From Pseudomonadota bacterium (GTDB taxonomy: Bacteria > Pseudomonadota > Gammaproteobacteria > Burkholderiales > Burkholderiaceae_C): a stretch of DNA of 64,000 bases. Under the pieces are notes generated by a model, which saw nothing but the letters and a program-made list of their open reading frames with translations, was not told where the DNA came from and searched no databases. The stretch's first letter is position 1; each line of letters begins with the position of its first letter. This document shows, in pieces, positions 4,898-31,357 of this stretch. Location: positions 119,380-183,379 of the forward strand of contig JAIUOW010000009.1 of NCBI GenBank assembly GCA_020161775.1. Direction: 5' to 3'. Made by a program: the position numbers and the translations under genes.

Positions 4898-5284
4898 ATG
4901 GACCAGACAGCTCACATGCACGAGACCTTTAGCCAAACCATTGAACTCGCCGACTTGCCGGAAGGCGAATCCCGGCGCTGCCAATTCGACGGAGCCGCCG
5001 TCGCGCTGTTCCGCGTCGAAGGCTGCGTTTATGCGACCCAGGACGAGTGCACGCACGGCAGGGCTTCCTTGGCCGACGGATACCTGATCGGCGACGAGGT
5101 TGAGTGCCCCCTTCACCAAGGCATGTTCAACGTTCGCACCGGAGCGGTCACCGCTGCCCCTTGCACCCAGGCTCTCAAGACCTACGCCGTTGAAGTCCGC
5201 GACGGCGTGATCTACCTCGCTCCCTCATCCGCCAAGGCCGAGTCGCCGACCGGCCAGACCCCCCCCAAAGGAGACACTGCATGA
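4898..5284 (+). CDS. Rieske [2Fe-2S] ferredoxin, aromatic dioxygenase electron carrier
   Basis: A 128-residue soluble Rieske ferredoxin of the kind that passes electrons to ring-hydroxylating oxygenases (NahAb/NagAb type). The cluster ligands are C51-x-H53 (DECTHG) and C70-x2-H73 (VECPLHQG), and the KTYAVEV strand near the C-terminus is also typical. It has a C-terminal tail of about 20 residues beyond the fold. GGAGG lies just before ATG 4898. As first gene of catabolic unit 1 it is best matched to the NagGH-like oxygenase at 12007-13799, since phthalate dioxygenases normally take electrons directly from their reductase. It overlaps the next gene by ATGA. Confidence 0.9.
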   Translation: MDQTAHMHETFSQTIELADLPEGESRRCQFDGAAVALFRVEGCVYATQDECTHGRASLADGYLIGDEVECPLHQGMFNVRTGAVTAAPCTQALKTYAVEVRDGVIYLAPSSAKAESPTGQTPPKGDTA

Positions 5285-6453
5285 AACTTCTTCGCCTGAT
5301 GGCGCTTGGCGCCGTCGCCGCCTGTATCGGCACGGCGCAATCGCAAACGCCGGCACCCATCAAGATAGGTTTCGTCGGCGAGCTTTCGGGTCCGCAAGGC
5401 GCCTTGGGCCAGGACCAGTACGACGGATTCATGATGGTCGTGGAACGCAACGGCGGCAAGCTCGGCGGTGTCCCGGTGCAGATCATCAAGGAGGATTCCC
5501 AGCTCAAGCCCGACGTCGCCACGCAGATAGTGCAGCGCCTGATCGAGCGCGACAAGGTGCCAATCATCACCGGCGTGACTTTCTCCAACATCATGATGGC
5601 GATCCACAGGCCGGTGACCGAGAAGGAAGTGTTCCTTATCGGCTCAAACGCCGGCCCCTCCCCCATCGCCGGCTCCGCGTGCTCACCGTACCAGTACGTC
5701 GTGTCGTGGCAGGTGGACCAGCTCGCGGAAGTGTTCGGCGTTCACGCCAACAGCAAGGGCTACAAGAAGGTCTACCTGATGGCGCCCAATTACCAGGCGG
5801 GCAAGGACTTTCTCTCCGGCTTCAAGCGGACTTTCAAGGGCCAGATCGTGGACGAGGTCTATACGAGCCTCAACCAGCCGGACTTCTCCGCGGAACTGAC
5901 CCAACTGAATGCGGCCAAGCCGGACGCCGTTTTCGTCTTCTATCCGGGCGGCCTGGGCATCAACTTCGTGAAGCAGTACCAGCAAGCGGGCCTGCTCGGC
6001 AAGGTGCCGCTCATGTCGGGTGGCGCTGTCGATGGCACCACGCTGCCCGCATTGAAGGAAACAGCACTAGGCGTGCTCGGCGCCTTCCCTTGGGGTCCCG
6101 ACCTGGACAACAGGGCGAACAAGCGATTTGTCGAAGAGTTCGAGCGCAAATACAACCGTATTCCAGCAGCTTTTGCTGCCCAAGGCTATGACTCCGCGCT
6201 CCTGCTCGACTCGGCGATCGCCAAAGTCAAGGGCAACGTAGCCGACAAGCGCGCCTTCATGGCAGCCCTCAAGACCGCTGAATTCGAGTCCGTTCGCGGG
6301 TCGTTTAAGTTCGGCAACAACAACTTCCCCGTGCAGGATTTCCACATCCAGGAAGTCGCCAAGGACACCAAGGGGCGCGTGAGCCTCAAGACGATCGCCA
6401 CACCGTTCAAGGCCCAGGCAGACTCGTACCACACGCAGTGTGCGATGAAGTGA
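5281..6453 (+). CDS. ABC transporter substrate-binding protein (branched-chain amino acid/aromatic acid type)
   Basis: A 390-residue periplasmic binding protein of the LivK/HAAT family. Residues 1-22 are a signal peptide ending in AQS-Q. The mature protein starts with IKIGFVGELSGPQG, the usual first strand and loop, and has GVTFSNIMMA and YQAGKDFLSGF further on. In catabolic operons such proteins commonly bind aromatic acids, and the location between a ferredoxin and ring-cleavage genes points that way. The ATG overlaps the ferredoxin stop, with AAGGAG eight bases upstream. The ligand (naphthoate, phthalate or other) is not readable from sequence. Confidence 0.9.
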   Translation: MKLLRLMALGAVAACIGTAQSQTPAPIKIGFVGELSGPQGALGQDQYDGFMMVVERNGGKLGGVPVQIIKEDSQLKPDVATQIVQRLIERDKVPIITGVTFSNIMMAIHRPVTEKEVFLIGSNAGPSPIAGSACSPYQYVVSWQVDQLAEVFGVHANSKGYKKVYLMAPNYQAGKDFLSGFKRTFKGQIVDEVYTSLNQPDFSAELTQLNAAKPDAVFVFYPGGLGINFVKQYQQAGLLGKVPLMSGGAVDGTTLPALKETALGVLGAFPWGPDLDNRANKRFVEEFERKYNRIPAAFAAQGYDSALLLDSAIAKVKGNVADKRAFMAALKTAEFESVRGSFKFGNNNFPVQDFHIQEVAKDTKGRVSLKTIATPFKAQADSYHTQCAMK

Positions 6454-6491
6454 TCGTCTGATCGCCAGTCCACATCAGTGCCCACATCCAG

Positions 6492-7412
6492 ATGACCGCC
6501 TCCGTCATCCTCACCCAGTTGCTCAACGGCATCCAGCTGGGGGCGCTGCTCTTCCTTCTCTCCGCCGGGCTCACGCTGGTCTTCGGGATCATGAATTTCG
6601 TGAACCTGATGCACGGCTCGCTTTTCATGATGGGGGCGTATTTCGCCGCTGCGGGCTACAAAGTGTCCGGCTCGTTCACGGTCGCCGCAATCTGCGCCGT
6701 GGGCGGGGGCCTCGTCCTTGGCCTGCTGGTGGAGCGTCTGGTCGTCTCAAAGATGTACCGCCGCGAGCACCTCGATCAGGTGCTCGTGACATTTGGGTTG
6801 GTACTCTTTTTCAACGAGGTTGCCCGCATCCTCTGGGGTCCGACTTCGGTGCACGCGGGATCGCCGGCCGCGTTCGACGGCACGGTCAATCTCCTCGGCG
6901 TGATGTATCCCTCCTATCGTCTCCTCATCATCGGCGTCGCGCTCGTGGTGGGAGCGGGCCTCTACTTCATGATCCATCGCACCCGCATTGGCATGCTGGT
7001 GCGAGCGGGGGCCACCCGTCCCGAGATCGTGAGTGCGCTTGGCGTTAATGTCGTGCGCCTGAAGCGCTGGCTTTTCGCCTTCGGCGCGATGCTTGCCGCA
7101 CTCGGCGGCCTGATGGCCGGGCCGATCACGTCAGTGCAACCCGGCATGGGCGAGCCGGTGCTGATCATGACCCTCGTCGTCATCGTCACCGGCGGCATCG
7201 GCTCCATCCGGGGCGCGTTCTACGGCGCCATGATCATCGGTGTCGTCGACACAGTGGGCCGCGCGTTCCTGCCGCTGATGCTGCGCGAGGTGTTCGAGCG
7301 TTCCGTCGCGCAGGCCGCGGGACCTGCGCTGGCGTCCATCCTGATCTATCTTTTCATGGCCTGCGTGCTCGCCATCCGTCCGCAAGGCCTGTTCCCGGTG
7401 CGCCATGGCTGA
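6492..7412 (+). CDS. ABC transporter permease, LivH type
   Basis: This 306-residue inner-membrane permease has about eight hydrophobic helices and the LivH opening NGIQLGALLFLLSAGLTLVFG, followed by MNFVNLMHGS, which is diagnostic for the family. It forms the channel with the LivM-type protein that follows and overlaps that gene by eight bases. Together with the binding protein and two ATPases it makes one complete HAAT importer, most likely for the aromatic acid degraded by the surrounding enzymes. Confidence 0.92.
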   Translation: MTASVILTQLLNGIQLGALLFLLSAGLTLVFGIMNFVNLMHGSLFMMGAYFAAAGYKVSGSFTVAAICAVGGGLVLGLLVERLVVSKMYRREHLDQVLVTFGLVLFFNEVARILWGPTSVHAGSPAAFDGTVNLLGVMYPSYRLLIIGVALVVGAGLYFMIHRTRIGMLVRAGATRPEIVSALGVNVVRLKRWLFAFGAMLAALGGLMAGPITSVQPGMGEPVLIMTLVVIVTGGIGSIRGAFYGAMIIGVVDTVGRAFLPLMLREVFERSVAQAAGPALASILIYLFMACVLAIRPQGLFPVRHG

Positions 7413-8394
7413 ACAGTTGTCCTCTCGCATTCGCCGACACTGGTTGCCCATCGTTCTGCTCGGGCTCCTGGCGCTGCTGCCCGTGGTGGCCGCCTTGCTG
7501 GGGCAAAGCTACTACGTCACCTTCGCAACGCGCGTGCTCGTCCTCGCCATCGCAGCCGTGGGCTTGAACGTGGCGCTCGGCTACGGCGGAATGGTCAGCT
7601 TCGGCCATGCGCTGTACGTGGGCCTGGGCGCCTACGTCGTTGCCGCCATGTCAGAAGCCGGCATCCAGTCGGGCTTGGCCCATCTCGGCACGGCTCTCGC
7701 TGCCGGGGGCCTGCTTGCGGTCCTTCTCGGCCTCGTGTGCCTGCGCACCAGCGGCATCGCGTTCATCATGATCACGCTGGCGTTCTCCCAAATGTTCTAC
7801 TACGTCATCGTAAGCCTCAAGCGCTATGGGGGCGACGATGGGATGTCCCTTCCGGCACGCAGCACCTTGTTGGGTGCCAGCCTGGACAGTCCGGTTGCCT
7901 TCTACTACCTGGTGTTCGCCGTGCTTGCGCTCGCGCTGCTCTTCGTGGCTTCGATGGCGCGCTCGCGATTCGGCTGGGTGGTACGCGGCAGCAAACTGAA
8001 CGCAAGACGCATGGCGGCATTGGGCTACCCCGTGCTTCGCTATCGGCTCGCAGCCTACGTGCTGTCCGCCCTGATCTGCGTGGTCGCCGGGGTGCTGCTC
8101 GCGAACCTCACGCGCTTCGCATCGCCTTCGTACCTGCAGTGGTCGCTCTCCGGCGAACTCATCGTGATGGTGGTGCTGGGAGGCATGGGCACCGTGCTTG
8201 GTCCCGTGTTCGGCGCGATCGCGCTGCTGGTTCTGGAGGAGCTGCTCGCCAACGCGCATCTACCGATGCCCTTCGGCGCCGACGCGATGGTGCGCTCCCA
8301 TTTCATGGGCCTGATCGGCATCTTCATCGTTCTCATGGCAATGGGTACCCGGCACGGCCTGGCCGGCCTCGCCAACCGCAAGGCTGCATCATGA
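7405..8394 (+). CDS. ABC transporter permease, LivM type
   Basis: A 329-residue inner-membrane permease, second channel half of the importer. It carries the LivM signature GLNVALGYGGMVSFGHALYVGLGAY near the N-terminus, about nine hydrophobic segments, and GGMGTVLGPVFGA in the region that contacts the ATPase. It overlaps the LivH-type gene upstream and shares ATGA with the ATPase gene downstream, as in a tight operon. Confidence 0.92.
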   Translation: MAEQLSSRIRRHWLPIVLLGLLALLPVVAALLGQSYYVTFATRVLVLAIAAVGLNVALGYGGMVSFGHALYVGLGAYVVAAMSEAGIQSGLAHLGTALAAGGLLAVLLGLVCLRTSGIAFIMITLAFSQMFYYVIVSLKRYGGDDGMSLPARSTLLGASLDSPVAFYYLVFAVLALALLFVASMARSRFGWVVRGSKLNARRMAALGYPVLRYRLAAYVLSALICVVAGVLLANLTRFASPSYLQWSLSGELIVMVVLGGMGTVLGPVFGAIALLVLEELLANAHLPMPFGADAMVRSHFMGLIGIFIVLMAMGTRHGLAGLANRKAAS

Positions 8395-9146
8395 CGCCAC
8401 TGCTCGCGGTCGAGAACCTGGTCAAGCGCTTCCGCGGCATCCGTGCATCGGACGGCATCAACTTCGACTTGCGCCACGGCGAGATCCATGCCGTGATCGG
8501 GCCCAATGGCGCAGGCAAGACTACCTTCATCAACCAGCTCGCAGGGGAGCTGGCCCCCGACTCCGGTCGCATTCTCCTGGACGGCCGAGATATCACAAAG
8601 GAACCGGTGCATAGGCGGGCAGCCCTCGGCCTGGGGCGGTCCTACCAGATCAGTGCGGTGTTCGACGAGTTGTCCGTTCTCGACAACGTCATGCTGGCCG
8701 CGCAGGCGCACCAGGGGCACAGTTTCCGGTTCTTCAACGACGCGGCGAAAGATGAAGACGTCGCAGCGCCATCGCGCGAAGCGGTGCGGATCGTCGGGCT
8801 TGAAGATTCCATGCACCGCCCCGTGGCGGACCTCGCGCACGGCGCGAAGCGCCAGCTCGAACTGGCCATGGTGATCGCCACGAAACCCCGCTTCATGCTG
8901 CTGGACGAGCCCATGGCGGGCACGGGCCCGACCGAGTCGCGCGAGATTGTCGCCCTCCTGCGGCGCCTTCGGGGCACGGCTGCCATCGTGCTGATCGAGC
9001 ACGACCTGGAGGCTGTCTTTGCATTGGCGGACCGCATCAGCGTCATGGTCTATGGAAAGGTCATCGCCACCGGAAGTTGCGACGAGATCCGGTCCGACCC
9101 CGCAGTGCGGGAAGCCTACATCGGCGACGAGGAGGCCGTGCTGTGA
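8391..9146 (+). CDS. ABC transporter ATP-binding protein, LivG type
   Basis: A 251-residue ATPase energising the importer. The Walker A is GPNGAGKTT (about residues 37-45), Walker B is MLLDEP, and the switch histidine is in IEHD. The signature motif reads LAHGAKRQLELA rather than the canonical LSGGQQ type, as is common in LivG proteins. The extended C-terminal part ends with REAYIGDEE, also LivG-like. ATG 8391 shares four bases with the permease stop; the longer upstream frame is out of register with the family. Confidence 0.92.
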   Translation: MTPLLAVENLVKRFRGIRASDGINFDLRHGEIHAVIGPNGAGKTTFINQLAGELAPDSGRILLDGRDITKEPVHRRAALGLGRSYQISAVFDELSVLDNVMLAAQAHQGHSFRFFNDAAKDEDVAAPSREAVRIVGLEDSMHRPVADLAHGAKRQLELAMVIATKPRFMLLDEPMAGTGPTESREIVALLRRLRGTAAIVLIEHDLEAVFALADRISVMVYGKVIATGSCDEIRSDPAVREAYIGDEEAVL

Positions 9147-9856
9147 GCGCCGCACTCGTCGAGGCCCGAGACCTGGTTGCGCACTACGGAACCAGCCAGG
9201 TGCTTTTTGGCGCCGGGCTGGATTTGAGGCGCGGCGAGTTCGTGACGCTCCTGGGCCGCAATGGCATGGGAAAGTCGACGCTGGTCAAGGTGCTGCTGGG
9301 CATGTTGCCCGCGCGCTGCGGATCGGTGCGTTTCGACGGAACGGAAATCTCGGGACGGCCTGACCACGAGAATGCCCGCCGCGGAATCGGGTTGGTCCCG
9401 GAAGGCCGCGGCATCTTCCCCAACCTGAGCGTGCGCGAGAACTTGCTGGCTACCGCCATCGAGCGTAAGGAATCGACCACGCCGTGGTCGTTGACGCGCG
9501 TGCACGAACTCTTCCCGCGCCTTCAGGAACGGGAGAAGAACCTCGGCAGCGATTTGTCCGGCGGCGAGCAGCAGATGCTCGCCATCGGGCGCGCGCTCAT
9601 GACCAATCCGAAACTGCTGATCCTCGACGAGGCGACCGAGGGATTGGCACCGCTGGTGCGGCGCGAGATCTGGCTGTGCCTTCAAAGACTGAAGGCAGAG
9701 GGCCTGACCATGCTGGTAATCGACAAGAACCTCAAGCCGCTGCTGCACTTGGCGGACAGGCACTACGTGATCGAGAAAGGCCGGATGGCGTGGTCGGGAA
9801 CATCTTCGCAGTTGCAAGCCTCACCCGACGTTATGTCGCGCTACCTCAGCTTGTGA
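9143..9856 (+). CDS. ABC transporter ATP-binding protein, LivF type
   Basis: A 237-residue ATPase, partner of the LivG-type protein. It has Walker A GRNGMGKST, signature LSGGEQQML, Walker B LLILDEATEGLAP and a LivF-like VPEGRGIFPNLSVRENLL block. The H-loop position reads VIDKNLK, where most ABC ATPases have a histidine (E-H-D/N); loss of the switch histidine is seen in some LivF proteins. GTG 9143 overlaps the previous stop (GTGA), and in-frame codons further upstream would add unrelated residues. It is the last transporter gene before the ring-degradation genes. Confidence 0.9.
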   Translation: MSAALVEARDLVAHYGTSQVLFGAGLDLRRGEFVTLLGRNGMGKSTLVKVLLGMLPARCGSVRFDGTEISGRPDHENARRGIGLVPEGRGIFPNLSVRENLLATAIERKESTTPWSLTRVHELFPRLQEREKNLGSDLSGGEQQMLAIGRALMTNPKLLILDEATEGLAPLVRREIWLCLQRLKAEGLTMLVIDKNLKPLLHLADRHYVIEKGRMAWSGTSSQLQASPDVMSRYLSL

Positions 9857-9885
9857 GCAATTCGGAACACTGACCAGGAGTACCC

Positions 9886-10845
9886 ATGAAAGTAACTATG
9901 CAGGACATCCGCGGTGTGGTGGGGATCGTCCCGACGCCCGCCACGGCGGATGCGGAAAGCTGGAGCGCCGTGAACACCATCGACCTCGCGGAGACGGCGA
10001 AGATGGTTGGCGCGGTGGTGGATTCGGGCGTCGACATCTTGATGACGACCGGAACCTTCGGCGAGTGCGCCACGCTCACCGAAGACGAGCTGCGGACGTT
10101 CGTGCAGGCCGTCGTGCGGACGGTCGCCAAGCGCCGCCCGGTGTTCGCGGGGATCACGACGCTGAACACTCGCGACACGATCCGCCGCGGCCGCGAACTG
10201 GTCGAGCTCGGCGCCGATGGCCTCTTCGTCGGTCGGCCAATGTGGCTGGCGATGGACGACAAGTCCATCGTGCGCTTCTACCGCGACATTGCAGAGGCGC
10301 TCCCTGGCGTGCCCCTGGTGGCGAACGACAATCCTTCCGCGTTCAAGGGCAAGATGTCGCGCGACGTCTACCGTGCGCTCGCCGAGATTCCCGAAGTGGT
10401 CGCTTCCAAGCACGTTGGCGGCCCGGCCCTCGTGTCCGACCTGCTGGAAGTTGGCGACAAGATCCGCCTGCTGCCGCTGGAGATGGACTGGTATGCCCTG
10501 GCGCGCGACCACCGCGAGCGCGCCCAGGCGTGCTGGTCGGGCAGCGTGGCCTGCGCGCCTGCGCCCATTGTGGCCTTGCGTGACGCAATCTTTGCCGAGG
10601 ACTGGGCTAGAGCCGCCGAGATCAGCGAAAAAGTGAACTGGGCCGTCAAGGCGATGTTCCCCGGTGGTGAGCTGTCGAAGTTCATGGACTACAGCATCCA
10701 GCTGGGTCATGTGCGCTTTCGCGAAGCCGGGCTGTTCGATCCCGGCCCATCGCGCCCGCCTTACCTGGAAGCGCCGGCCGACTATGTCGAGGGCTCGCGT
10801 GTCTGCGGACGTCGCTGGGCCCAATTGCAGCGCGAGTACGCGTGA
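9886..10845 (+). CDS. NahE/PhdJ-type hydratase-aldolase (DapA superfamily)
   Basis: A 319-residue class I aldolase of the dihydrodipicolinate synthase superfamily, closest in my reading to trans-o-hydroxybenzylidenepyruvate hydratase-aldolase (NahE) and trans-2'-carboxybenzalpyruvate hydratase-aldolase (PhdJ). Shared features are TPATADAESW with NTIDL near the start, MTTGTFGECATLT (53-65), the Schiff-base lysine K175 in VASKHVG, and the C-terminal SRPPY block. Such enzymes hydrate and cleave an aryl-CH=CH-CO-COOH product to an aromatic aldehyde plus pyruvate. Where NahE has a YANPEAF segment, this protein has VANDNPSAF, so the substrate pocket differs. AGGAG precedes ATG 9886. It sits between the importer and the ring-cleavage dioxygenase. 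Confidence 0.85.
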   Translation: MKVTMQDIRGVVGIVPTPATADAESWSAVNTIDLAETAKMVGAVVDSGVDILMTTGTFGECATLTEDELRTFVQAVVRTVAKRRPVFAGITTLNTRDTIRRGRELVELGADGLFVGRPMWLAMDDKSIVRFYRDIAEALPGVPLVANDNPSAFKGKMSRDVYRALAEIPEVVASKHVGGPALVSDLLEVGDKIRLLPLEMDWYALARDHRERAQACWSGSVACAPAPIVALRDAIFAEDWARAAEISEKVNWAVKAMFPGGELSKFMDYSIQLGHVRFREAGLFDPGPSRPPYLEAPADYVEGSRVCGRRWAQLQREYA

Positions 10846-10867
10846 AGTCCGAGACGAGAGGAATACC

Positions 10868-11974
10868 ATGAGCGCGAAACCGAATTCACCCGTCAAAAGC
10901 CTCGCCAGTTTCGACAAGGACCTGGCCGAAATTTCCATCCGCGGCCAGTGGCAGTACGACGAAATGCTCGAGCGGCTGATCGGGGGACCCAAGACCGCCG
11001 CGCTGCCGATGATGTGGAAGTGGGACATCGTCCAGCGCAAGCTGATGGAAGCCTGCGACGTCATGGCCGAGAGCTTCACGGCGCGCCGCAACCTGTCGTT
11101 CATCAACCCCGGCCTCGAGCGTGGCGGCACGTCGCAAACCATCTTGGCGGGCATGCAAGCCGTCAAGCCGGGCGAGGTGGCGTGGGCCCATCGCCACCCG
11201 ATCTCGGCGTTGCGCTTCGTGATGGACGGCGACCCCAAGCTGTTCACCGTAGTCAACGGTGAGGTCCTAACGATGGAGACGAACGACCTGGTGCTGACGC
11301 CGGCCTGGACTTGGCACGACCACCACAACGAGAGCGACATCCTCGGCGTCTGGCTCGACGTCCTCGACGTGCCGCTGATGCTTTCGTTGGGCCAGATGGC
11401 GTATCAACCGCTGGGCGAGACGACGCAGCCGATCCGTGCCGAGCGGCACAATTACCTGAGCGAACGCACGGGGGTCGTCCGCCCCCTGTGGGAACAGAAG
11501 GTGGGTGGCTCAATGCCGCGTCGCTATCCGTGGAAGGAGGTCAAGCGCCAACTCGACCTGTTCTGCGAGGGCGGGCCGGCCAGCCCCTACGACGACGTGA
11601 TCTTAGAGTACGTGGACCCGACAACGGGCGGCTCGACTCTGCCCACGCTGCGGTGCTGCGTGCAGCGCCTGCGTCCGGGATTCATCGGGCAGCAGCATCG
11701 GCGGACTGCCAGCACCGTCTACTACGTCGTGGAGGGCGAAGGCAGCACGCGCATCGGCGACACGGAACTGCACTGGGGCCCGCGCGACGTGTTCGTGGTG
11801 CCGACCTGGGTATGGCACGAGCATCGCTGCGGCGCGGGCGGCCAGGCGGCCACCTTGTTCAGCGTGAGCGACGCACCGCTCCTCGAGGCCGCGCAGCTCT
11901 ATCGTGAAGAACCCGAATCGCAGGTGGGCCGCAGGTCCGCGCCCCTGCCGCCGCTTGACGCCCGCAAGGCTTGA
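10868..11974 (+). CDS. Gentisate/1-hydroxy-2-naphthoate-type bicupin ring-cleavage dioxygenase
   Basis: A 368-residue bicupin of the gentisate 1,2-dioxygenase family, which also includes salicylate 1,2-dioxygenase and 1-hydroxy-2-naphthoate dioxygenase (PhdI). The first cupin carries the Fe(II) ligands H108 and H110 (AHRH) and H150 (WHDHH). The second cupin keeps H277 (QHRR) and WHEH (316-319). ATG 10868 follows GAGAGGAATACC; the longer upstream frame runs through the aldolase gene. Because an aldolase acting on benzalpyruvate-type products is next door, cleavage of 1-hydroxy-2-naphthoate to 2'-carboxybenzalpyruvate is the best guess; gentisate is the alternative. Confidence 0.85.
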   Translation: MSAKPNSPVKSLASFDKDLAEISIRGQWQYDEMLERLIGGPKTAALPMMWKWDIVQRKLMEACDVMAESFTARRNLSFINPGLERGGTSQTILAGMQAVKPGEVAWAHRHPISALRFVMDGDPKLFTVVNGEVLTMETNDLVLTPAWTWHDHHNESDILGVWLDVLDVPLMLSLGQMAYQPLGETTQPIRAERHNYLSERTGVVRPLWEQKVGGSMPRRYPWKEVKRQLDLFCEGGPASPYDDVILEYVDPTTGGSTLPTLRCCVQRLRPGFIGQQHRRTASTVYYVVEGEGSTRIGDTELHWGPRDVFVVPTWVWHEHRCGAGGQAATLFSVSDAPLLEAAQLYREEPESQVGRRSAPLPPLDARKA

Positions 11975-12006
11975 TGGCCGATTCGAACGAACACCAAGGA
12001 AGCTCC

Positions 12007-12480: not shown

Positions 12481-12494
12481 AGGATCCCCAAGCC

Positions 12495-13799: not shown

Positions 13800-14401
13800 G
13801 TTCCCCGCTGAAGGTCGTCACCGGCTCCGTCGCGCGGGCGTCGGTTGCGGCCGGCGGCGGCGCGGGGACGGGGCCGGCGCTGGAGGACAGCCTGGGCTTC
13901 CTCATCTGCGACACCGCGCGCTATGTGAGGAGGGTGCTCAGCTCGCGGCTTGCGCCGTATGGCATTCCCGGCAGCTGCTGGTTCGTGCTGCGGGCGCTAT
14001 GGCAGCGTGACGGATGCACGCAGCGCGAGCTGAGCGCGATGCTTGGCCTGGCTGAGCCCGCGGTGATGATGACGTTACGCACCCTGGAGCGCCTTGGCTT
14101 GGTCACGCGCGCACGGGACGAATCCGACAAGCGTCGTATCGCCATCCTGTTGACGCAACGCGCGCGCGACATCGAGGAGGAATTGCTCGGTGTCGCCGCC
14201 GAGGTCAACCAGGCCATGCTGGCAACGATTTCCCCCGACGCGCGCGCCAGCATGATGTCGTCGCTGCGTTCCGTTCACACGGAACTTGAGCGCGCCTGCG
14301 ACAGCACGCTCCAGCCGTTCGACAAGGAAATCGCCGGCGAGCGAATGCCGTCCGCCGCCCGGCTGGCCGCCCAACCCGAGAAAAAGAGAGTCTTTAGATG
14401 A
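13796..14401 (+). CDS. MarR-family transcriptional regulator (first)
   Basis: A 201-residue MarR protein. The winged helix lies at about residues 70-130 (LWQRDGCTQRELSAMLGLAEPAVMMTLRTLERLGLVTR), followed by an ISDKRR-type wing DESDKRRIAILLT. It has a 40-residue N-terminal extension rich in Gly/Ala and a long C-terminal helix region. GTG 13796 overlaps the oxygenase stop and the gene's own stop overlaps the aldehyde dehydrogenase start, so it is embedded in the unit it probably controls. The ligand is expected to be a pathway acid or CoA-free intermediate; the likely site is the palindrome at 4855-4866 and/or 15905-15916. Confidence 0.9.
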   Translation: MSSPLKVVTGSVARASVAAGGGAGTGPALEDSLGFLICDTARYVRRVLSSRLAPYGIPGSCWFVLRALWQRDGCTQRELSAMLGLAEPAVMMTLRTLERLGLVTRARDESDKRRIAILLTQRARDIEEELLGVAAEVNQAMLATISPDARASMMSSLRSVHTELERACDSTLQPFDKEIAGERMPSAARLAAQPEKKRVFR

Positions 14402-15867
14402 GTTCCGACGACGCCATCACCTCCGCGCTGCCACGCCATCGCCAGCTTTATGCGGGCGGGCACTGGATCGAGCCGCAGGGCGGCTACCGCGACACCTGGA
14501 ATCCGGCGACAGGCGCATCGCTCGGCCCGTGTGCCGAGGCCAATGCGGCCGACGTCGATGCCGTCGTCATGCAGGCGCAAGCCGGCTTCGAAACGTGGCG
14601 CTCGGTGAAGCCCCTGGAGCGCGCGGCCATGATGCGGCGCATTGCGCAAGTGCTGCGGGACAACGCCGGCGAGCTGGCGCTCATCGACGCGGCGAACTGC
14701 GGCAACCCGCTCAAAGAGATGGCGGGCGATGCACTGGCGGCCGCCGCACAGGTTGAATATTTCGCGGGGCTCGTCACCGAGATCAAGGGCGAAACCCTTC
14801 CAATGGGCGACGGCGTCGTGAACATGACCGTGCGCGAACCCCTGGGGGTCTGCGCGCGCATCGTTGCGTACAATCACCCGCTGATGTTCGTCGCCGGCAA
14901 GCTGGCGCCCGTCATCGCGGCCGGAAACACCGCCGTGATGAAGGCGCCTCAGCAGGCACCGCTGTCCACATACCGGTTAATGGAACTGATCGAGGACATT
15001 CTCCCGCCTGGCGTCCTGAACATCGTCACGGGCGGCACGGCTGCCGGACAGGCGCTGGTCGCGCATCCGCTGGTGCAACACGTCGCTTTGATCGGCAGCG
15101 TCGAAACCGGCCGCGCCATCGCGCGCGCGGCCGCGGACCAGCTGAAGAAGGTCTCGCTCGAACTCGGGGGCAAGAATGCCTGCATCATCTTTCCGGATGC
15201 GGACATCGCCGCCGCGATCAAGGGTGCCGTGGGCGGCATGAATTTCAGCTGGTGTGGCCAGTCCTGCGGCTCCACCTCGCGGCTCTTCGTGCATGAGTCC
15301 GTGTACGACCGGGTGATCGACGGTGTCCTGCAACAGGTGCGGCAATTCCAGCCCGGCCTGCCGACGGATCCGGCCACGTCGATGGGCGCCCTCGTGTCGA
15401 AGGACCAATTCGACAAGGTGATGCGATACATCGACGTCGCGCACGCCGACGGCGCGCGCCTGCTGTACGGGGGTAAGCGCGCGACCGATGCGGCGCTCGC
15501 GAATGGCTTCTTTGTGGAGCCGACGATTTTCGACGGCGTCACCCACGACATGCGCATCGCGCGCGAGGAAGTCTTCGGTCCCATTCTCTCCATCCTCAAG
15601 TGGAGCGACACCGACGAGATGCTGAGCCACGTCAATTCCGTCGACTACGGCCTGACCTGCTCGATCTGGACCACCAGCCTCGCGAACGCGCACCGCACCG
15701 CAGCGCGCGTGGAAGCCGGGTACATCTGGGTCAACAACGCCAGCCGGCACTTCATCGGTGCGCCGTTTGGCGGCTACAAGCGCTCCGGGCTCGGCCGCGA
15801 GGAATCGCTCGAAGAACTGCTGCACTACACGCAGGTCAAGAACATCAACATCACGCTCGCACCTTGA
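14398..15867 (+). CDS. Aldehyde dehydrogenase, probable 2-carboxybenzaldehyde dehydrogenase
   Basis: A 489-residue NAD(P)-dependent aldehyde dehydrogenase with all key residues: N159 (AYNHP), K182 (VMKAP), E255 (LELGGKN) and nucleophile C290 (GQSCGS). The ending GAPFGGYKRSGLGRE is standard. By position it would oxidise the aldehyde released by the hydratase-aldolase, giving o-phthalate if that aldehyde is 2-carboxybenzaldehyde (PhdK role), and so links the two halves of the island. The family alone does not define the substrate. It overlaps the MarR gene by ATGA and is the last gene of unit 1; 70 bases later the phthalate unit starts. Confidence 0.88.
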   Translation: MSSDDAITSALPRHRQLYAGGHWIEPQGGYRDTWNPATGASLGPCAEANAADVDAVVMQAQAGFETWRSVKPLERAAMMRRIAQVLRDNAGELALIDAANCGNPLKEMAGDALAAAAQVEYFAGLVTEIKGETLPMGDGVVNMTVREPLGVCARIVAYNHPLMFVAGKLAPVIAAGNTAVMKAPQQAPLSTYRLMELIEDILPPGVLNIVTGGTAAGQALVAHPLVQHVALIGSVETGRAIARAAADQLKKVSLELGGKNACIIFPDADIAAAIKGAVGGMNFSWCGQSCGSTSRLFVHESVYDRVIDGVLQQVRQFQPGLPTDPATSMGALVSKDQFDKVMRYIDVAHADGARLLYGGKRATDAALANGFFVEPTIFDGVTHDMRIAREEVFGPILSILKWSDTDEMLSHVNSVDYGLTCSIWTTSLANAHRTAARVEAGYIWVNNASRHFIGAPFGGYKRSGLGREESLEELLHYTQVKNINITLAP

Positions 15868-15904
15868 GCGGTTGCACCAAGCGCCGCCGCACCACGAGCC
15901 AAAC

Positions 15905-15916
15905 TTAGATATCTAA
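15905..15916. promoter_or_regulatory. Palindromic operator, probable MarR site (unit 2)
   Basis: A second, identical copy of the 12-bp palindrome TTAGATATCTAA, 21 bases before the phthalate dioxygenase ATG at 15938. It lies between the stop of the aldehyde dehydrogenase and the GAGGAC ribosome binding site, where it would overlap a promoter for unit 2. Confidence 0.7.
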
Positions 15917-15937
15917 CCAATACAGAGGACCGAGAAG

Positions 15938-17251
15938 ATGCTCACGCCGCAAGAAAACGAGCTGCTCTGCCGCGTCGAAGGCGATGCCCCCATGGGCCAG
16001 TTGATGCGCAGGCACTGGACGCCGATCTGCCTTCGCGAAGAGGTGCCGGAGCCCGATGGCCCGCCCGTGCAGGCGCGCATCTTCGGAGAAGACCTGGTGG
16101 TGTTTCGCGACACGGAAGGCCGTGTCGGTGTGATGGACGAATACTGCCCGCACAGGCGCGCGTCCCTGGTTCTCGGGCGCAACGAAGACAGCGGCCTGCG
16201 CTGCCTGTACCACGGCTGGAAGATGGACGTCCAGGGCAATGTGATCGAAATGGCTTCCGAGCCCAGCGCGAGCTGCATGGCTCAGAAGGTCAAGCACAAG
16301 GCCTACCCCACGCATGAATGGGCGGGGCTTGTCTGGGCCTACATGGGCCCGCCGGAGACCCAGCCCGAGTTCCAGCCGCCGGCATGGGCCCCCACGGAAA
16401 ACGCGCGCGTCAGTATCGCCAAGGCGGTACTCCCCTGCAATTGGGCGCAGGTGCTCGAGGGTGCGATCGACTCGGCGCACAGCTCCAGCCTGCATTCGTC
16501 CGACATGGTTCCCGCGCGTGTAGATGGCGCCAAGGCCACGGACAAAACCTGGCTGCGTCCGTCGACGGACAGGGCGCCGCGGATGCAGGTGCAACGCGCA
16601 GGCTACGGTTTCCGCTACGCCGCCTTGCGCCGACCCATCACGAACGCTGCGACGCACGAGTACATCCGCACGACCGTCTTCGTCGCGCCCGCGGCCGCGC
16701 TGATCCCGCCGAACAACCTCTACAACGTCGCCAACATCAACGTGCCGATGGACGACACGCACACGGTGTTCTACTTCATCGCCTGGGGTCACCCTGCGCA
16801 AACCCCCGAGACGGACACCTGGCGCAAGTTCCTGAGACAGCAGGTAGGCGTGGACCTCGACAACCGCTACCGTCCCCTGCGCACGCGCGACAACATGTTC
16901 TGGCAGGACCGCCAGGCCATGAAGGCGGGCAACTTCACCGGCATCACGGGCTTTCCCAACCAGGACGTGGCGATGTGGGTCACGATGGGCCCGATCGCCG
17001 ACCGCACACGCGACCGTCTCGGTGCCAGCGATGTGGCGGTCGTCGAGTTCCGCAAGCAGATGCTCGAAGCCGTGCGGGCTTTCCAGGACGGCGCCCGAGC
17101 CATCGGCACCGGCGAACACGCCATTCCCTCCAACGTCTGTGCTTTCCAGGCCGTGGTGCCCAAGACGAGCGACTGGCGCACCTACGACGCGCGCCACGTC
17201 TGGCAGGAACAGGGCGAGGCCTTGGACGCCGGATATCAGGTCGGGCCCTGA
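15938..17251 (+). CDS. pht3: Phthalate 4,5-dioxygenase oxygenase component
   Basis: A 437-residue class IA Rieske oxygenase that adds O2 to o-phthalate, giving cis-4,5-dihydro-4,5-dihydroxyphthalate. It matches the known phthalate dioxygenases (Pht3/OphA2) closely from the first residues MLTPQENELLCRVEGDAPMG. Rieske ligands are C70-P-H72 and C89-L-Y-H92. The mononuclear site has D178, H181 and H186 in GAIDSAHSSSLH. The enzyme has no beta subunit and receives electrons directly from a reductase, encoded two genes on. It is first in unit 2, with an operator and GAGGAC site upstream. Confidence 0.95.
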   Translation: MLTPQENELLCRVEGDAPMGQLMRRHWTPICLREEVPEPDGPPVQARIFGEDLVVFRDTEGRVGVMDEYCPHRRASLVLGRNEDSGLRCLYHGWKMDVQGNVIEMASEPSASCMAQKVKHKAYPTHEWAGLVWAYMGPPETQPEFQPPAWAPTENARVSIAKAVLPCNWAQVLEGAIDSAHSSSLHSSDMVPARVDGAKATDKTWLRPSTDRAPRMQVQRAGYGFRYAALRRPITNAATHEYIRTTVFVAPAAALIPPNNLYNVANINVPMDDTHTVFYFIAWGHPAQTPETDTWRKFLRQQVGVDLDNRYRPLRTRDNMFWQDRQAMKAGNFTGITGFPNQDVAMWVTMGPIADRTRDRLGASDVAVVEFRKQMLEAVRAFQDGARAIGTGEHAIPSNVCAFQAVVPKTSDWRTYDARHVWQEQGEALDAGYQVGP

Positions 17252-17255
17252 CGCC

Positions 17256-18245
17256 ATGGCCAAGCTCCAGCTTTCTGTCGCCATGGGCGACTACGACCGC
17301 ACCCGCGCCCTCTACGACGGCCGGGTGCAGATCGATGGCGTCGATCCGGTGTACATGCTGCTCAATCCGGAGGAGATGTTCTTTCGGGCGATGCGCAGCC
17401 GCGACTTCGACATCGCCGAACTGTCGTTTTCCAGTTACCTGGTGAAGCACTCGCGGGGAGAGTCTCCGTACATCGCGGTGCCTGTTTTTCTTTCACGGGC
17501 ATTTCGGCATACCTCGATCTATGTGCGACGGGATCGGATCCGCAAACCTGAAGACCTGAAGGGTTGCCGCATCGGAGTGCCCGAATACCAATTGACCGCG
17601 ATCGTCTGGGCTCGGGCCCTGCTGCAGGACGAATACGGGGTGAAGCCCGCCGACGTGACTTGGGTGCGCGGCGGAATCGACACCCCGGGCCGGCCGGAAA
17701 AGATCCGCCTCGAACTGCCGGCGGATGTGCGCCTCGAAGCCGCCCCCGAGGGCAAGACGATCACCGAGTTGCTCAACGAAGGCGATCTCGACGCATTCAT
17801 CGCGCCGAGGCCGCCGGGTGCGCAGGCACTGCGCAACCCCGACGTGCGCTGGCTCTTTGACGATCCGACGGCAGCTGCGAAGGACTTCTATCGTCGCACG
17901 CGCGTCTTTCCGATCATGCATGTGGTTGGCATTCGCAAGGAACTCGCGCAGCAGCATCCCTGGTTGCCGGGTGCCGTGCTGAAGGCGTTCACGCAGTCCA
18001 AGCAGGCAGGCCTTGAGCTGCTGGGCGACACCTCCGCGACCAAGGTGACGCTGCCCTTCGTCGAGGAACAGTTGCAGGCCGCCCGCGAACTCATGGGCGG
18101 CGACTTCTGGTCGTACGGCGTCGCGCCGAACCAGGCGACGCTGGAGACCTTCGTTCGCCACCATCATTCGCAAGGCTTGTCGCCGCGCCAAGTCCCTGTC
18201 GAGGATTTGTTCCACCCGGCGACCTACGAGAGCTACAGCATCTGA
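17256..18245 (+). CDS. pht5: 4,5-dihydroxyphthalate decarboxylase
   Basis: A 329-residue protein matching Pht5/OphC, which decarboxylates 4,5-dihydroxyphthalate to protocatechuate. It has no signal peptide, yet its fold resembles a periplasmic binding protein (LQLSVAMGDYDRTRALYDG, then DLKGCRIGVPEYQLTAIVWARALL), which is known for this decarboxylase and explains why such genes are sometimes labelled ABC-binding proteins. ATG 17256 sits four bases after the dioxygenase stop; longer in-frame starts overlap that gene. It completes the route from phthalate to protocatechuate together with the oxygenase, reductase and dehydrogenase of the unit. Confidence 0.93.
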   Translation: MAKLQLSVAMGDYDRTRALYDGRVQIDGVDPVYMLLNPEEMFFRAMRSRDFDIAELSFSSYLVKHSRGESPYIAVPVFLSRAFRHTSIYVRRDRIRKPEDLKGCRIGVPEYQLTAIVWARALLQDEYGVKPADVTWVRGGIDTPGRPEKIRLELPADVRLEAAPEGKTITELLNEGDLDAFIAPRPPGAQALRNPDVRWLFDDPTAAAKDFYRRTRVFPIMHVVGIRKELAQQHPWLPGAVLKAFTQSKQAGLELLGDTSATKVTLPFVEEQLQAARELMGGDFWSYGVAPNQATLETFVRHHHSQGLSPRQVPVEDLFHPATYESYSI

Positions 18246-18252
18246 TCGAGCC

Positions 18253-19218
18253 ATGAGCGACTCCCACGAACTCGCCTTCAACCTGCGCATCGCGCGCGCG
18301 ACCGACGCGGCCGAGGGCATCCGTAGCTTCGAGCTCGTTAGTTCGAACGACGCGCCCTTGCCCGCGTTCACACCCGGCGCGCACGTGCGCCTGCGCACCC
18401 CTGCCGGCGCAGTGCGCAAGTATTCGCTTTGCAACGATCCGTCGGAGCGCCATCGCTATGTCATCGCGGTCAAGCGCGACGCAGCGGGCCGCGGGGGTTC
18501 GGTCAGCATGGTCGACGAGGCGCGCGAAGGCGACCTGCTGTGCGTTTCGGAGCCGGAGAATGCTTTTCGCATGTCGCGCGGCGCGCGCAGCTACCTGTTC
18601 ATCGCCGGCGGAATCGGCATCACGCCGATCCTGTCCATGATCCGCTCGCTGCAGGAACAGCCCGACGCGAAGTGGCGGCTGCTCTACCTGACCCGATCGG
18701 CAGCCACCACGCCGTTCGTCGAAGAGCTGCGCGAGCTCGACGCGGGTGGCCATGTCATCATCCACCATGACGAGGGCGACCCTTCGAGAGCGCTCGACCT
18801 GTGGCCTTTCCTGGAGAAGCCCCAGGACCACCAACACATCTACTGCTGCGGCCCGCGACCGCTGATGGACGCGGTCAAGGACATGAGCGGTCACTGGGCT
18901 GCAGGCCGGGTGCACTTCGAGAGCTTCACCGACGGTTCGGTCCCGCGCAAGAACGACCAGGCCTTCATCGTCCACCTCGCACGTTCGCACAAGTCCGTCG
19001 CCGTTCCAGTTGGGCAATCCATCCTGGAGGCCGTGCGGTCCGCGGGCTGCGAGGTGGCGGCGTCGTGCGAGAGCGGCACATGCGGCACCTGCAGGACCGG
19101 CCTGCTTGCCGGCGAAGCCGATCATCGCGACATGGTGTTGATGCCGGAAGAACAGGCCTCCCAGATCATGGTGTGTGTTTCGCGCGCATCGGGCGGCGAG
19201 CTGACGATCGACCTATGA
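18253..19218 (+). CDS. pht2: Phthalate dioxygenase reductase
   Basis: A 321-residue iron-sulfur flavoprotein of the phthalate dioxygenase reductase type. The FMN-binding barrel has RKYSLCND (55-62), the NADH domain GGIGITP (119-125), and the C-terminal plant-type [2Fe-2S] domain the ligands C272, C277, C280 and C308. It carries electrons from NADH to the phthalate oxygenase. As the only reductase in the island, it may also feed the ferredoxin at 4898 and thereby the NagG-like oxygenase, much as one reductase/ferredoxin pair serves two oxygenases in nag clusters. That sharing is inference. It overlaps pht4 by ATGA. Confidence 0.93.
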   Translation: MSDSHELAFNLRIARATDAAEGIRSFELVSSNDAPLPAFTPGAHVRLRTPAGAVRKYSLCNDPSERHRYVIAVKRDAAGRGGSVSMVDEAREGDLLCVSEPENAFRMSRGARSYLFIAGGIGITPILSMIRSLQEQPDAKWRLLYLTRSAATTPFVEELRELDAGGHVIIHHDEGDPSRALDLWPFLEKPQDHQHIYCCGPRPLMDAVKDMSGHWAAGRVHFESFTDGSVPRKNDQAFIVHLARSHKSVAVPVGQSILEAVRSAGCEVAASCESGTCGTCRTGLLAGEADHRDMVLMPEEQASQIMVCVSRASGGELTIDL

Positions 19219-20408
19219 CCGAACCGCCGCTTCGCATCGGCGTGATCGGGTTGGGGCGCGCATTCAGCCTGATGGTGCCAACTTTCGCGCACGACCCGCG
19301 CGTGCGGATCGTGGCCGGCTTCGACCCCCGCGACGAGCCTCGCCGGCGCCTCGCTTCGGACTTCGGTGCGGCGACGTATGGGCAGGCGGAAGCGCTGTGC
19401 CGCGACCCCGCTGTCGAAGCAGTGTACGTCGCAAGCCCGCACCAATTTCATGCCGAGCACGTGCAGATGGCGGCGCGCAACGGAAAGCACGTGCTGGCGG
19501 AAAAGCCGATGGCGCTGAGGCTGGCCGAATGCGACGCGATGATTCGCACGTGCGACGAAGCGCGTGTGAAGCTGGTGGTCGGGCACTGCCACAGTTTCGA
19601 TACGCCCTATTTGCACACGCGCGAATTGATACGCAGCGGAAACTACGGCGCGGTGCGCATGATCCACGCGTTCAACTACACGGACTTCCTGTACCGTCCG
19701 CGCCGCCCTGAAGAACTGCGCACCCAGGACGGTGGTGGCGTTGTGTTCAGCCAGGCCGCCCATCAGATCGACGTGGTGCGGCTGCTGGCGGGCGGCAACC
19801 TCGTACGCGTGCGTGCCACGACGGCCGCCTGGGACGCTGCGCGTCCCACCGAAGGCGCATACAGCGCGATGCTGTGGTTCGACAACGGTTGCTTTGCCAC
19901 GGTGGTCTACAGCGGCTATGCGCACTACGACTCGGACGAATGGTGCGGATGGATCGGCGAGATGGGACAGCCCAAGGATCCAGCGCGGCACGGGTCGGCG
20001 CGCGCCCGCCTGGGAAGCATCGGCTCTCCCCAGCAGGAAGCGGAGTTGAAGGCGGCCACGACCTACGGAGGGTCGGGATACCGCGATGGGCGCAGCGAGC
20101 CTTTGCCTGTCGGCCACCAGCACTTTGGAGCCGTCGTCGCCAGTTGCGAGCGCGCCGACCTGAGGCCCATGCCCGATGGCGTGTGGATCGACAGCAACGG
20201 CGGCGGAGAAAAAGTCGGCATCGCGCCTCCGGCGGTTCCCCGTTCCGAAGTGATCGACGAACTGGTGGCTGCGGTGCGGCACGAACAGGCACCGCTTCAC
20301 GACGGCTCGTGGGCACGCGACACGCTTGCGGGTTGTCTGGCGATACTGGAGTCGGCACGTGACCACGCGGATGTACATGTCCAGCCCTATGCAAGAATTC
20401 ACGCCTAG
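19215..20408 (+). CDS. pht4: 4,5-dihydro-4,5-dihydroxyphthalate dehydrogenase (Gfo/Idh/MocA family)
   Basis: A 397-residue NAD(P)-dependent oxidoreductase. The N-terminal Rossmann motif is GVIGLGRAF (9-17), followed by the family signature AEKPMAL and a HQIDVVRLL helix in the C-terminal domain. Pht4/OphB proteins of this family rearomatise the cis-4,5-dihydrodiol of phthalate to 4,5-dihydroxyphthalate. Gfo/Idh/MocA enzymes usually act on sugars, so the assignment leans on the overlap with the reductase gene and on matching the phthalate gene set. The C-terminus overlaps possible starts of the next MarR gene. Confidence 0.9.
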   Translation: MTEPPLRIGVIGLGRAFSLMVPTFAHDPRVRIVAGFDPRDEPRRRLASDFGAATYGQAEALCRDPAVEAVYVASPHQFHAEHVQMAARNGKHVLAEKPMALRLAECDAMIRTCDEARVKLVVGHCHSFDTPYLHTRELIRSGNYGAVRMIHAFNYTDFLYRPRRPEELRTQDGGGVVFSQAAHQIDVVRLLAGGNLVRVRATTAAWDAARPTEGAYSAMLWFDNGCFATVVYSGYAHYDSDEWCGWIGEMGQPKDPARHGSARARLGSIGSPQQEAELKAATTYGGSGYRDGRSEPLPVGHQHFGAVVASCERADLRPMPDGVWIDSNGGGEKVGIAPPAVPRSEVIDELVAAVRHEQAPLHDGSWARDTLAGCLAILESARDHADVHVQPYARIHA

Positions 20409-20424
20409 CCTGCGGCATGAATCG

Positions 20425-20961
20425 ATGAGCAAGACGTCCAAGACCCTCAAGGCCGACGAGGCCGACCGCGTGCTGCGGCATTGGCACGAAGCGGTGCCCA
20501 ATGACCGGATGGCGCACTTGATCAAGGATGCGACGCGCTGCTTCCTGCGCGCCCTGCAGGTCCGCCTCGCGCGGCACAACGTACAGCTGGGACACTGGGC
20601 GTTCCTCCGCATCTTGTGGCAGCGCGACGGGCTCACCAAGCGTGAGCTCAGCATCGAGGCGGGCCTGATGGAGCCAACTACGTTTGTCGCCCTGCGAGCC
20701 ATGGAGTCCCTGGGCTACGTGACGCTGGAGCGCAAGGTCGTGAGCAAGAAGAACGTCTACGTCTACCTGACTCCGGCCGGCAGGGAGCTAGAAAAGCTGC
20801 TCGTGCCACTGGCGGTAGAGGTCAATTCGATTGCTCTAGCCGGCGTGTCGGAGGCGGACATCGCAGCGACAAGGAGGTGCCTGCTTTCCGCGATCGACAA
20901 CCTGTCCGAGGAAGCCCTGCGGCTCGGCGGCGCAGTTGAGGAATTGGAAGTCCGCTCCTGA
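20425..20961 (+). CDS. MarR-family transcriptional regulator (second)
   Basis: A 178-residue MarR protein (from ATG 20425). The winged helix is at about residues 60-125 (LWQRDGLTKRELSIEAGLMEPTTFVALRAMESLGYVTLER), with a KVVSKKNVYVYLT wing and a DIAATRR helix after it. It is clearly a paralogue of the first MarR protein of the island (LWQRDG, KRELS/QRELS and L-EPT/AEPA patterns match). Alternative in-frame starts at 20371, 20377 and 20389 would overlap pht4. As last gene of unit 2 it is likely autoregulated through the palindrome at 15905-15916 and may cross-act on unit 1. Confidence 0.88.
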   Translation: MSKTSKTLKADEADRVLRHWHEAVPNDRMAHLIKDATRCFLRALQVRLARHNVQLGHWAFLRILWQRDGLTKRELSIEAGLMEPTTFVALRAMESLGYVTLERKVVSKKNVYVYLTPAGRELEKLLVPLAVEVNSIALAGVSEADIAATRRCLLSAIDNLSEEALRLGGAVEELEVRS

Positions 20962-31283: not shown

Positions 31284-31330
31284 GCCGCGCTCAAAATTAA
31301 TTCAATCTGCCTCAATGGCGTTTCGCTAAG

Positions 31331-31348
31331 CTTCGGGGTTGCCCGAAG
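31331..31348 (+). promoter_or_regulatory. Hairpin at the lldD ribosome binding site
   Basis: CTTCGGG (31331-31337) and CCCGAAG (31342-31348) form a 7-bp stem with a 4-base GTTG loop. The 3' arm runs into the GAAGGAG ribosome binding site (31345-31351) of the lactate dehydrogenase gene (GTG 31358), so it may tune translation. An upstream-terminator role is less likely because no T run follows. Confidence 0.4.
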
Positions 31349-31357
31349 GAGACAAAC

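Follow-up and report, generated by a model that had tools for sequence, protein, structure and literature searches.

What compound do the 17 genes between positions 4898 and 20961 of this stretch of Burkholderiales DNA serve to degrade? We analysed a window of 64,000 nucleotides (positions 119,380 to 183,379 of contig JAIUOW010000009.1, GenBank assembly GCA_020161775.1), in which these genes, all on the + strand in an open-frame list with refined starts, are arranged as two units: unit 1 with 12 genes (4898-15867) and unit 2 with 5 genes (15938-20961) (Table 1). Family names were assigned by profile scans (Pfam, NCBIfam) of the translated frames and by comparison with the PDB, the LivH and LivF frames excepted; most NCBIfam matches of the 17 proteins score under the curated cut-offs, so that gene names rest on protein comparisons. 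A sequence-only reading of this DNA had described a stepwise route from 1-hydroxy-2-naphthoate (1H2N) to protocatechuate, with a NagGH-like oxygenase as a possible entry for 2-naphthoate. The genes that it named are all present on this strand as open frames with family matches. Its interpretation was supported in part: the 1H2N-to-protocatechuate route is well supported as a prediction, and entry of 2-naphthoate through the Rieske oxygenase stands as our best inference. We favour, with some reserve, the reading that the cluster serves to degrade 2-naphthoate or a closely related naphthoic acid, with 1H2N formed by a Rieske monooxygenase.

The proposed ring-cleavage enzyme is a bicupin of the gentisate dioxygenase superfamily, whose matches to the Cupin_2 and gentisate/aminosalicylate dioxygenase models do not reach the model cut-offs. 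No solved protein matches it at more than 192.2 bits, the matches being labelled as gentisate 1,2-dioxygenases and a 5-nitrosalicylate dioxygenase. Its best plasmid matches are from Massilia sp. WG5 (63% identity) and Pseudarthrobacter phenanthrenivorans Sphe3 (45%), both described as phenanthrene degraders; a paper title credits strain Sphe3 with characterised 1H2N dioxygenases, to which the Sphe3 cupin used here was not matched by accession. For the family sets we excluded tblastn matches with less than 75% query coverage (less than 40% for the context map). A first bicupin tree was built from 46 of 85 rows and a second from 41 of the 85 plus the cupin of a phn-like operon of WG5, omitting L017, L051, L079, L082 and L088, which lay between or beside the main groups in the first tree. 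In the second tree, the window bicupin falls within a 32-row clade that includes the Sphe3 cupin (support 91/98), and a 99/98 split separates this clade plus the WG5 phn-like cupin from nine gentisate-type rows, to which the window protein is 34-41% identical. The WG5 phn-like cupin itself falls outside the 32-row clade, a placement that is unsure because its branch is very long (3.69). The window protein carries Leu93 where all nine gentisate-type rows have Tyr, all 32 clade rows a non-aromatic residue, and PDB 2phd, which we take to be a salicylate 1,2-dioxygenase, Trp; this site presumably has a role in 1H2N specificity. H108, H110 and the WHDHHN motif at 149-154 are invariant in the family alignment and align with solved gentisate dioxygenases, the N-terminal cupin histidines being presumably the iron ligands. 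We regard the bicupin as a well-supported candidate of the 1H2N dioxygenase type. A gentisate pathway was rejected for it by tree position and neighbouring genes, and the clustering with gentisate-pathway enzymes that the sequence-only reading had named as evidence against its route was found neither for the bicupin nor for the Rieske alpha subunit.

The hydratase-aldolase scores higher against PhdJ (386.5 bits) than against NahE (274-277 bits) and is 59% identical to the aldolase of the WG5 phn-like operon, which was added to 19 of 29 rows for the aldolase tree. Its Lys175, which we take to be the Schiff-base lysine, is Lys in 29 of 29 aligned rows. We name it PhdJ-related rather than a working PhdJ. 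The aldehyde dehydrogenase (ALDH) shares 63% identity with its counterpart in the same WG5 operon, whose gene adjoins those for the aldolase and cupin.

Unit 2 contains the phthalate half of the route, which matches solved enzymes. The oxygenase aligns with 7fjl/7v25 at 842 bits, residues 1-424 on 1-424; 7V25 is the phthalate dioxygenase (PDO) of C. testosteroni KF1, in which S182, R207, R244 and I256 are described as phthalate-binding or reaction-setting, and all four are present in the window protein at identical numbers. The decarboxylase matches a solved 4,5-dihydroxyphthalate decarboxylase (9jp7) at 572.7 bits, and the decarboxylase, reductase and Gfo/Idh dehydrogenase genes adjoin the dioxygenase gene in an order that is kept in two Polaromonas genomes (L022 and L023). 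As had been anticipated, the protocatechuate cleavage genes lie outside the cluster: host contig C4 encodes a 4,5-cleavage set with a LigB-type extradiol beta subunit (594.6 bits, cut-off 317) and LigK (415, cut-off 304.5), and a Gfo/Idh dehydrogenase and amidohydrolases are encoded on this contig as well.

We scanned a collection of 84,980 species by short peptide patterns, by which relatives can be missed, and found 69 bicupin loci, many of them on short contigs, so that the absence of a neighbour there means little. The arrangement, for which the sequence-only reading named no other example, is not unique to the host: all 17 genes occur together in the window order in L022 and L023. A Polaromonas metagenome-assembled genome (MAG, L024) has the first 12 genes, a Burkholderiaceae MAG (L042) has 13 of the 17 in rearranged order, and an Eremiobacterota MAG (L050) has the Rieske alpha and beta, aldolase and bicupin genes with two ABC ATPase genes on the opposite strand. 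On a plasmid of WG5, the run from the ABC ATPases (two only) to the dehydrogenase, without the ALDH gene, is present twice in tandem between IS6 elements. Genes for the Rieske alpha and beta subunits, bicupin, PhdJ-type aldolase and ABC components are co-located in L022, L023, L024, L042, L050 and the WG5 plasmid. A Rieske alpha with at least 47% identity was found in 5 of the 69 loci, the other Rieske matches reaching at most 37%. Pairwise dN/dS against L023 is 0.06-0.33 across the 17 genes, rough values since synonymous sites are close to saturation; these ratios and the recurrence of all 17 genes in the same order and strand in L022 and L023 argue that the arrangement is not due to chance. 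The host genus is represented in the collection by the host genome alone. In searches among near kin, 3 of 200 same-family genomes passed 1e-60 (the host itself and two at 34-42% identity) and 2 of 399 same-order genomes passed 1e-75 (the host itself and one other); phage records gave three matches at 29-35%.

A perfect palindrome, TTAGATATCTAA, occurs twice in the 4.36 Mb genome, once ahead of each unit and nowhere else. The gap from the palindrome to the first gene is 31 bases in unit 1 and 21 bases in unit 2. When up to two mismatches are allowed, the window still holds two sites vs 0.05 expected, a number reached in 1 of 100 shuffles. Both sites are exact in L022, and L023 has the unit 1 site with one mismatch and an exact unit 2 site. 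The form TTAGTTATCTAA stands ahead of unit 1 in L024, and TTAGGGGTCTAA ahead of each phthalate gene copy on the WG5 plasmid (L003). In local shuffles (50 per locus), TTAG-N4-CTAA arose on average 0.08-0.2 times and never more than once. Each unit contains a MarR-type gene, and the two products are 42% identical over 117 amino acids. Because the palindrome stands ahead of these two units only and is kept in Polaromonas, one MarR-type regulator probably controls both. This probable shared operator, together with a changed residue in the aldolase (Asn147, discussed below), goes beyond the sequence-only reading.

The question of the substrate turns on the Rieske oxygenase. The nearest solved structure to its alpha subunit is NagG (444.8 bits), terephthalate dioxygenase (TPADO) scoring 325. 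The alpha subunit keeps its Rieske and Fe(II) ligands (C99, H101, C119 and H122; H228 and H233; the Asp pair 372-373) and, as Arg326, the carboxylate Arg that is described in the TPADO paper as conserved across the aryl-carboxylate oxygenase subfamily. In a tree of 24 of 30 rows, it falls in a group of its own relatives (95/98) outside the NagG-gentisate group (96/98). Phe262 stands in the hand-mapped column of NagG Met257 (Met in 7 and Leu in 2 of 9 NagG-gentisate rows), Ala229 follows the first iron histidine (Pro in 7 and Ala in 2 of 9), and an extra residue near 258 is found in the window protein, L022, L023, L024, L005 and L042. Gene families and the bicupin tree gave no gentisate-pathway gene linked to the alpha subunit, and no flavin monooxygenase family was found among the scanned genes of the 17.

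We then consider the oxygenases encoded elsewhere. The host genome is rated 100% complete, and we searched it with PF00848, comparing matches with a six-protein panel; the search is not exhaustive, as this profile does not list the host's own phthalate dioxygenase. It returned four oxygenases, none naphthalene-type by best panel match: the window alpha, a weak one (L006, at best 30% to the panel), a biphenyl-type one (L007) and one 63% identical to NagG (L008). Phenanthrene upper genes in the host were rejected on the result of this non-exhaustive search. The relatives gave 3 (L022), 7 (L023), 9 (L024), 2 (L042) and 19 (L050) matches and the WG5 plasmid 3; all 30 for which loci were made were compared with the panel, and no naphthalene-type match was found in the L022 and L042 genomes, whose completeness was not stated. 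WG5 carries, besides the tandem run, a phn-like operon (L150 14139-17651) with its own aldolase, ALDH and a cupin 33-34% identical to the naphthoate-type (Rieske-linked) cupin, and a phn-like oxygenase alpha (L120) 47% identical to NagAc; one plasmid would thus hold two distinct 1H2N-type routes.

We infer that the Rieske oxygenase acts on an external naphthoic acid because its alpha gene occurs, in more than one gene order, together with those for the bicupin, the aldolase and ABC components, because the host's PF00848 oxygenases lack a naphthalene-dioxygenase best match, and because WG5 keeps a phn-like operon with separate cupin, aldolase and ALDH. The aldolase and ALDH would be useful only if the cupin yields 2'-carboxybenzalpyruvate, so the cupin should receive 1H2N, and 2-naphthoate would be the simplest acid one hydroxylation away. 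Under this reading, the HAAT-type ABC importer would take in the naphthoic acid. The Rieske system, composed of alpha, beta, ferredoxin and a shared or borrowed reductase, would hold the substrate by the carboxylate-binding Arg and mono-hydroxylate 2-naphthoate beside its carboxylate to give 1H2N. The bicupin would cut the C1-C2 bond of 1H2N to form 2'-carboxybenzalpyruvate, the aldolase would split this into pyruvate and 2-carboxybenzaldehyde, and the ALDH would oxidise the aldehyde to phthalate. Unit 2 would convert phthalate to protocatechuate for the 4,5-cleavage encoded on the other contig, and a MarR repressor bound to both identical palindromes would silence the units until a pathway acid is present. 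Gene content, order and conservation, the palindromes and the key residues are read directly from the DNA; each reaction, the regulation and above all the Rieske substrate are predicted from them.

Several observations weigh against this reading. NagG, the closest characterised Rieske relative, hydroxylates salicylate at C5 and not beside the carboxylate, so that attack beside the carboxylate of 2-naphthoate needs another binding mode. NmoA, the 2-naphthoate monooxygenase of Burkholderia sp. JT1500, is placed among the flavin-dependent monooxygenases, and a Rieske enzyme here would therefore be a different, unrelated solution for 2-naphthoate hydroxylation. Unit 1 has no reductase of its own, and no Reductase_C domain (PF14759, BphA4-type ferredoxin reductase) was found in the host genome; electrons may come from the unit 2 reductase or from a Fer2-FAD-NAD reductase encoded beside L007. 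PF08028, a broad fold family, gave 21 host matches that are not separable from ordinary acyl-CoA dehydrogenases; it was equally non-discriminating in six relatives, and the WG5 plasmid had no match. Neither the Rieske tree nor the bicupin tree, where long branches were flagged, settles how L042 and L050 stand to the window group, and no TTAG-N4-CTAA site was found in either locus. In the L023 genome, three PF00848 oxygenases have naphthalene dioxygenase as best panel match at 29-31%, too weak to name, and a polycyclic aromatic hydrocarbon (PAH) route may exist there. Finally, aldolase Asn147 (codon AAC, window 10324-10326) stands where the 28 other rows, PhdJ and NahE all carry Tyr, and the Tyr of the superfamily's YDNP-type motif is therefore missing from the window protein; it may be a natural variant, a lesion or an assembly error.

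The alternative that survives best, though we think it unlikely, is that the cluster takes up 1H2N or another naphthoic acid excreted by PAH degraders and that the Rieske reaction is a different one, such as attack on a substituted naphthoate, 4-hydroxylation, or the kind of decarboxylating hydroxylation that sphingomonad AhdA enzymes carry out on 1H2N. The importer implies an external acid, and 1H2N builds up in Burkholderia FM-2 cultures on phenanthrene. Regiochemistry varies in the subfamily, NagG, AndAc and AhdA1c being in one cluster in the TPADO paper. However, a 1,2-dihydroxynaphthalene branch would call for an extradiol or chromene-carboxylate isomerase gene and a 1,4-dihydroxy branch for one of the fumarylpyruvate hydrolase type; none of these is among the 17 genes, and the aldolase and ALDH suit 2'-carboxybenzalpyruvate. 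We find it improbable that the cluster is simply the lower part of phenanthrene degradation, supplied by PAH genes at other sites in the genome. Phenanthrene is served by the same lower chemistry, both top plasmid matches of the bicupin belong to phenanthrene degraders, and the weak L023 matches point the same way; the PF00848 results for the host genome, rated complete, and for L022 and L042, and the separate phn-like operon of WG5, all speak against it, and growth on phenanthrene would not obviously call for an acid importer.

It is more doubtful still that the pathway is real in the family and impaired in the host strain through Asn147: Tyr at that position is catalytic in the DHDPS/NAL superfamily, but the other 16 frames are open, the aldolase has a dN/dS of 0.09 against L023 and keeps Lys175, and a single-base assembly error could account for the codon. 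That a salicylate-gentisate pathway was misread is very improbable, since, although the alpha subunit is nearest NagG in the PDB, three of its plasmid relatives at 52-53% adjoin gtdA, and a gene of the glutathione S-transferase (GST) family, whose fold is that of glutathione-dependent maleylpyruvate isomerases, lies just upstream (3807-4544), both the bicupin and the alpha subunit are outside the gentisate-linked groups, the 17 genes contain a PhdJ-related aldolase and phthalate genes and no fumarylpyruvate hydrolase, the GST gene lies beyond the two units and has no match in the L022 and L023 loci, and the host has a better NagG homologue (L008).

Further observations concern the host and the related loci. 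The gene of that NagG-like oxygenase (contig C22:67225-68547, L019/L008; 63% refers to the annotated NagG) has a beta subunit gene adjoining, and L008 is possibly a true salicylate 5-hydroxylase. A run on host contig C10 (L018 8633-16513) encodes a Fer2-FAD-NAD reductase, biphenyl-type Rieske alpha and beta subunits, an FAD monooxygenase, a class II aldolase and an AtuA-like protein. G+C content is 64.7% in the cluster vs 69.7% downstream (24001-36000), dipping at 4-8 kb and again at 20-22 kb of the window, in which no tRNA gene was found; the cluster may be acquired DNA. The WG5 tandem run covers NZ_CP012641.2 693-26960 (L003, L150), and another copy, broken into pieces, lies on a plasmid of 14.6 kb; these copies (L003, L150, L005) look like a recent gene amplification. 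In the WG5 phthalate operon (L003 9450-11161), a TauE/SafE exporter gene and a nadC-like gene lie between the decarboxylase and reductase genes. In L024, a gene for a TctC-type binding protein (15007-15993) follows the ALDH gene instead of the phthalate unit. Seven loci (L070, L072, L073, L074, L080, L085 and L087), in MAGs labelled Deltaproteobacteria, Syntrophobacter or Gammaproteobacteria, hold a two-gene pair in which the bicupin gene is closely followed by one 28-42% like dihydroxyphthalate decarboxylase.

Table 1. Features of the two-unit cluster, with window positions and the basis of each assignment
Feature	Position	Strand	Basis
Perfect palindrome TTAGATATCTAA, upstream of unit 1, probable MarR operator	4855..4866		Exactly 2 places genome-wide
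Rieske-type [2Fe-2S] ferredoxin, proposed electron carrier of Rieske oxygenase	4898..5284	+	Pfam Rieske; NCBIfam HcaC/AndAb-like below cut-off
HAAT-family ABC substrate-binding protein, livK-like	5281..6453	+	Best PDB 4evq, 181 bits; linkage kept
LivH-like ABC permease	6492..7412	+	Open frame, conserved linkage; name from sequence and context
LivM-like ABC permease	7405..8394	+	Pfam BPD_transp_2; linkage kept
LivG-like ABC ATPase	8391..9146	+	Pfam ABC_tran and BCA_ABC_TP_C
LivF-like ABC ATPase, GTG start	9146..9856	+	Conserved linkage; name from sequence and context
PhdJ-related hydratase-aldolase (DHDPS family), proposed 2'-carboxybenzalpyruvate to 2-carboxybenzaldehyde and pyruvate	9886..10845	+	PhdJ 386.5 bits; Asn147 for Tyr
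Bicupin ring-cleavage dioxygenase, proposed 1H2N dioxygenase	10868..11974	+	Trees; 45% to Sphe3 plasmid cupin
Rieske oxygenase beta subunit, AndAd-like	12007..12480	+	Pfam Ring_hydroxyl_B; AndAd 99 bits, below cut-off
Rieske oxygenase alpha subunit, proposed 2-naphthoate 1-hydroxylase	12495..13799	+	NagG 444.8 bits; separate tree group; ligands and Arg326 kept
MarR-family regulator 1	13796..14401	+	Pfam MarR and MarR_2
ALDH, proposed 2-carboxybenzaldehyde dehydrogenase	14398..15867	+	Pfam Aldedh; 63% to WG5 phn-like ALDH
Perfect palindrome TTAGATATCTAA, upstream of unit 2	15905..15916		Same site in L022 and L023; TTAGGGGTCTAA in L003
Phthalate 4,5-dioxygenase oxygenase, Pht3-like	15938..17251	+	842 bits to 7fjl/7v25; S182, R207, R244, I256
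4,5-dihydroxyphthalate decarboxylase, Pht5-like	17256..18245	+	572.7 bits to PDB 9jp7
Phthalate dioxygenase reductase-like, NAD-binding and C-terminal Fer2	18253..19218	+	Pfam
Gfo/Idh/MocA dehydrogenase, proposed phthalate dihydrodiol dehydrogenase, Pht4-like	19215..20408	+	Pfam; between reductase and second MarR
MarR-like regulator 2	20425..20961	+	42% to MarR1 over 117 aa; Pfam MarR 23.5 bits vs cut-off 24.6

To our knowledge, genes for aerobic naphthoic acid use are poorly known, and we found no description of a Rieske-type 2-naphthoate hydroxylase or of the same gene arrangement among the open-access papers listed by our searches. The fuller proposal, to which we give about an even chance, is that the Rieske enzyme is a 2-naphthoate 1-hydroxylase, a non-heme iron monooxygenase whose reaction is also that of the unrelated flavin enzyme NmoAB, within a self-contained MarR-controlled naphthoate-to-protocatechuate regulon that has spread in Burkholderiales and, if the MAG bin is right, partly to Eremiobacterota. 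If true, naphthoate use could be recognised from a single locus, the same hydroxylation would have a second enzymatic solution, and the determinants of the position of attack could be studied in a Rieske subfamily. The reading can be tested directly in Polaromonas sp. AER18D-145, which appears to be an isolate and has all 17 genes, with Tyr in its aldolase. Naphthoic acids are described in a review as by-products of methylnaphthalene, phenanthrene and anthracene breakdown.

Compared with known systems, the cluster shares its three steps to phthalate with the phenanthrene lower pathway (PhdI-PhdJ-PhdK or PhnI-PhnG-PhnH, the 1H2N dioxygenase, hydratase-aldolase and 2-carboxybenzaldehyde dehydrogenase). 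It differs in being linked to Rieske alpha and beta subunits, a ferredoxin and an acid importer, and in having no PAH upper genes beside it, whereas WG5 has both types on one plasmid. With NagGH (salicylate 5-hydroxylase), the alpha subunit has in common the Rieske ligands, the facial triad and the carboxylate Arg, but it falls outside the NagG-gentisate group and the linked cupin is not gentisate-type. All four genes of the phthalate pathway (pht2, pht3, pht4 and pht5) are present with no essential difference seen, except that unit 2 sits behind a palindrome common to the naphthoate unit; it is also without the TauE and nadC genes of the WG5 phthalate copy. The hydroxylase of JT1500 is reportedly two-component, judging by the title of Deng 2007. 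Its product is said to be 1H2N. For that strain, a pathway from 2-naphthoate through 1H2N, 2'-carboxybenzalpyruvate and phthalate to protocatechuate has reportedly been proposed, and its intermediates are the same as those of the route predicted here.

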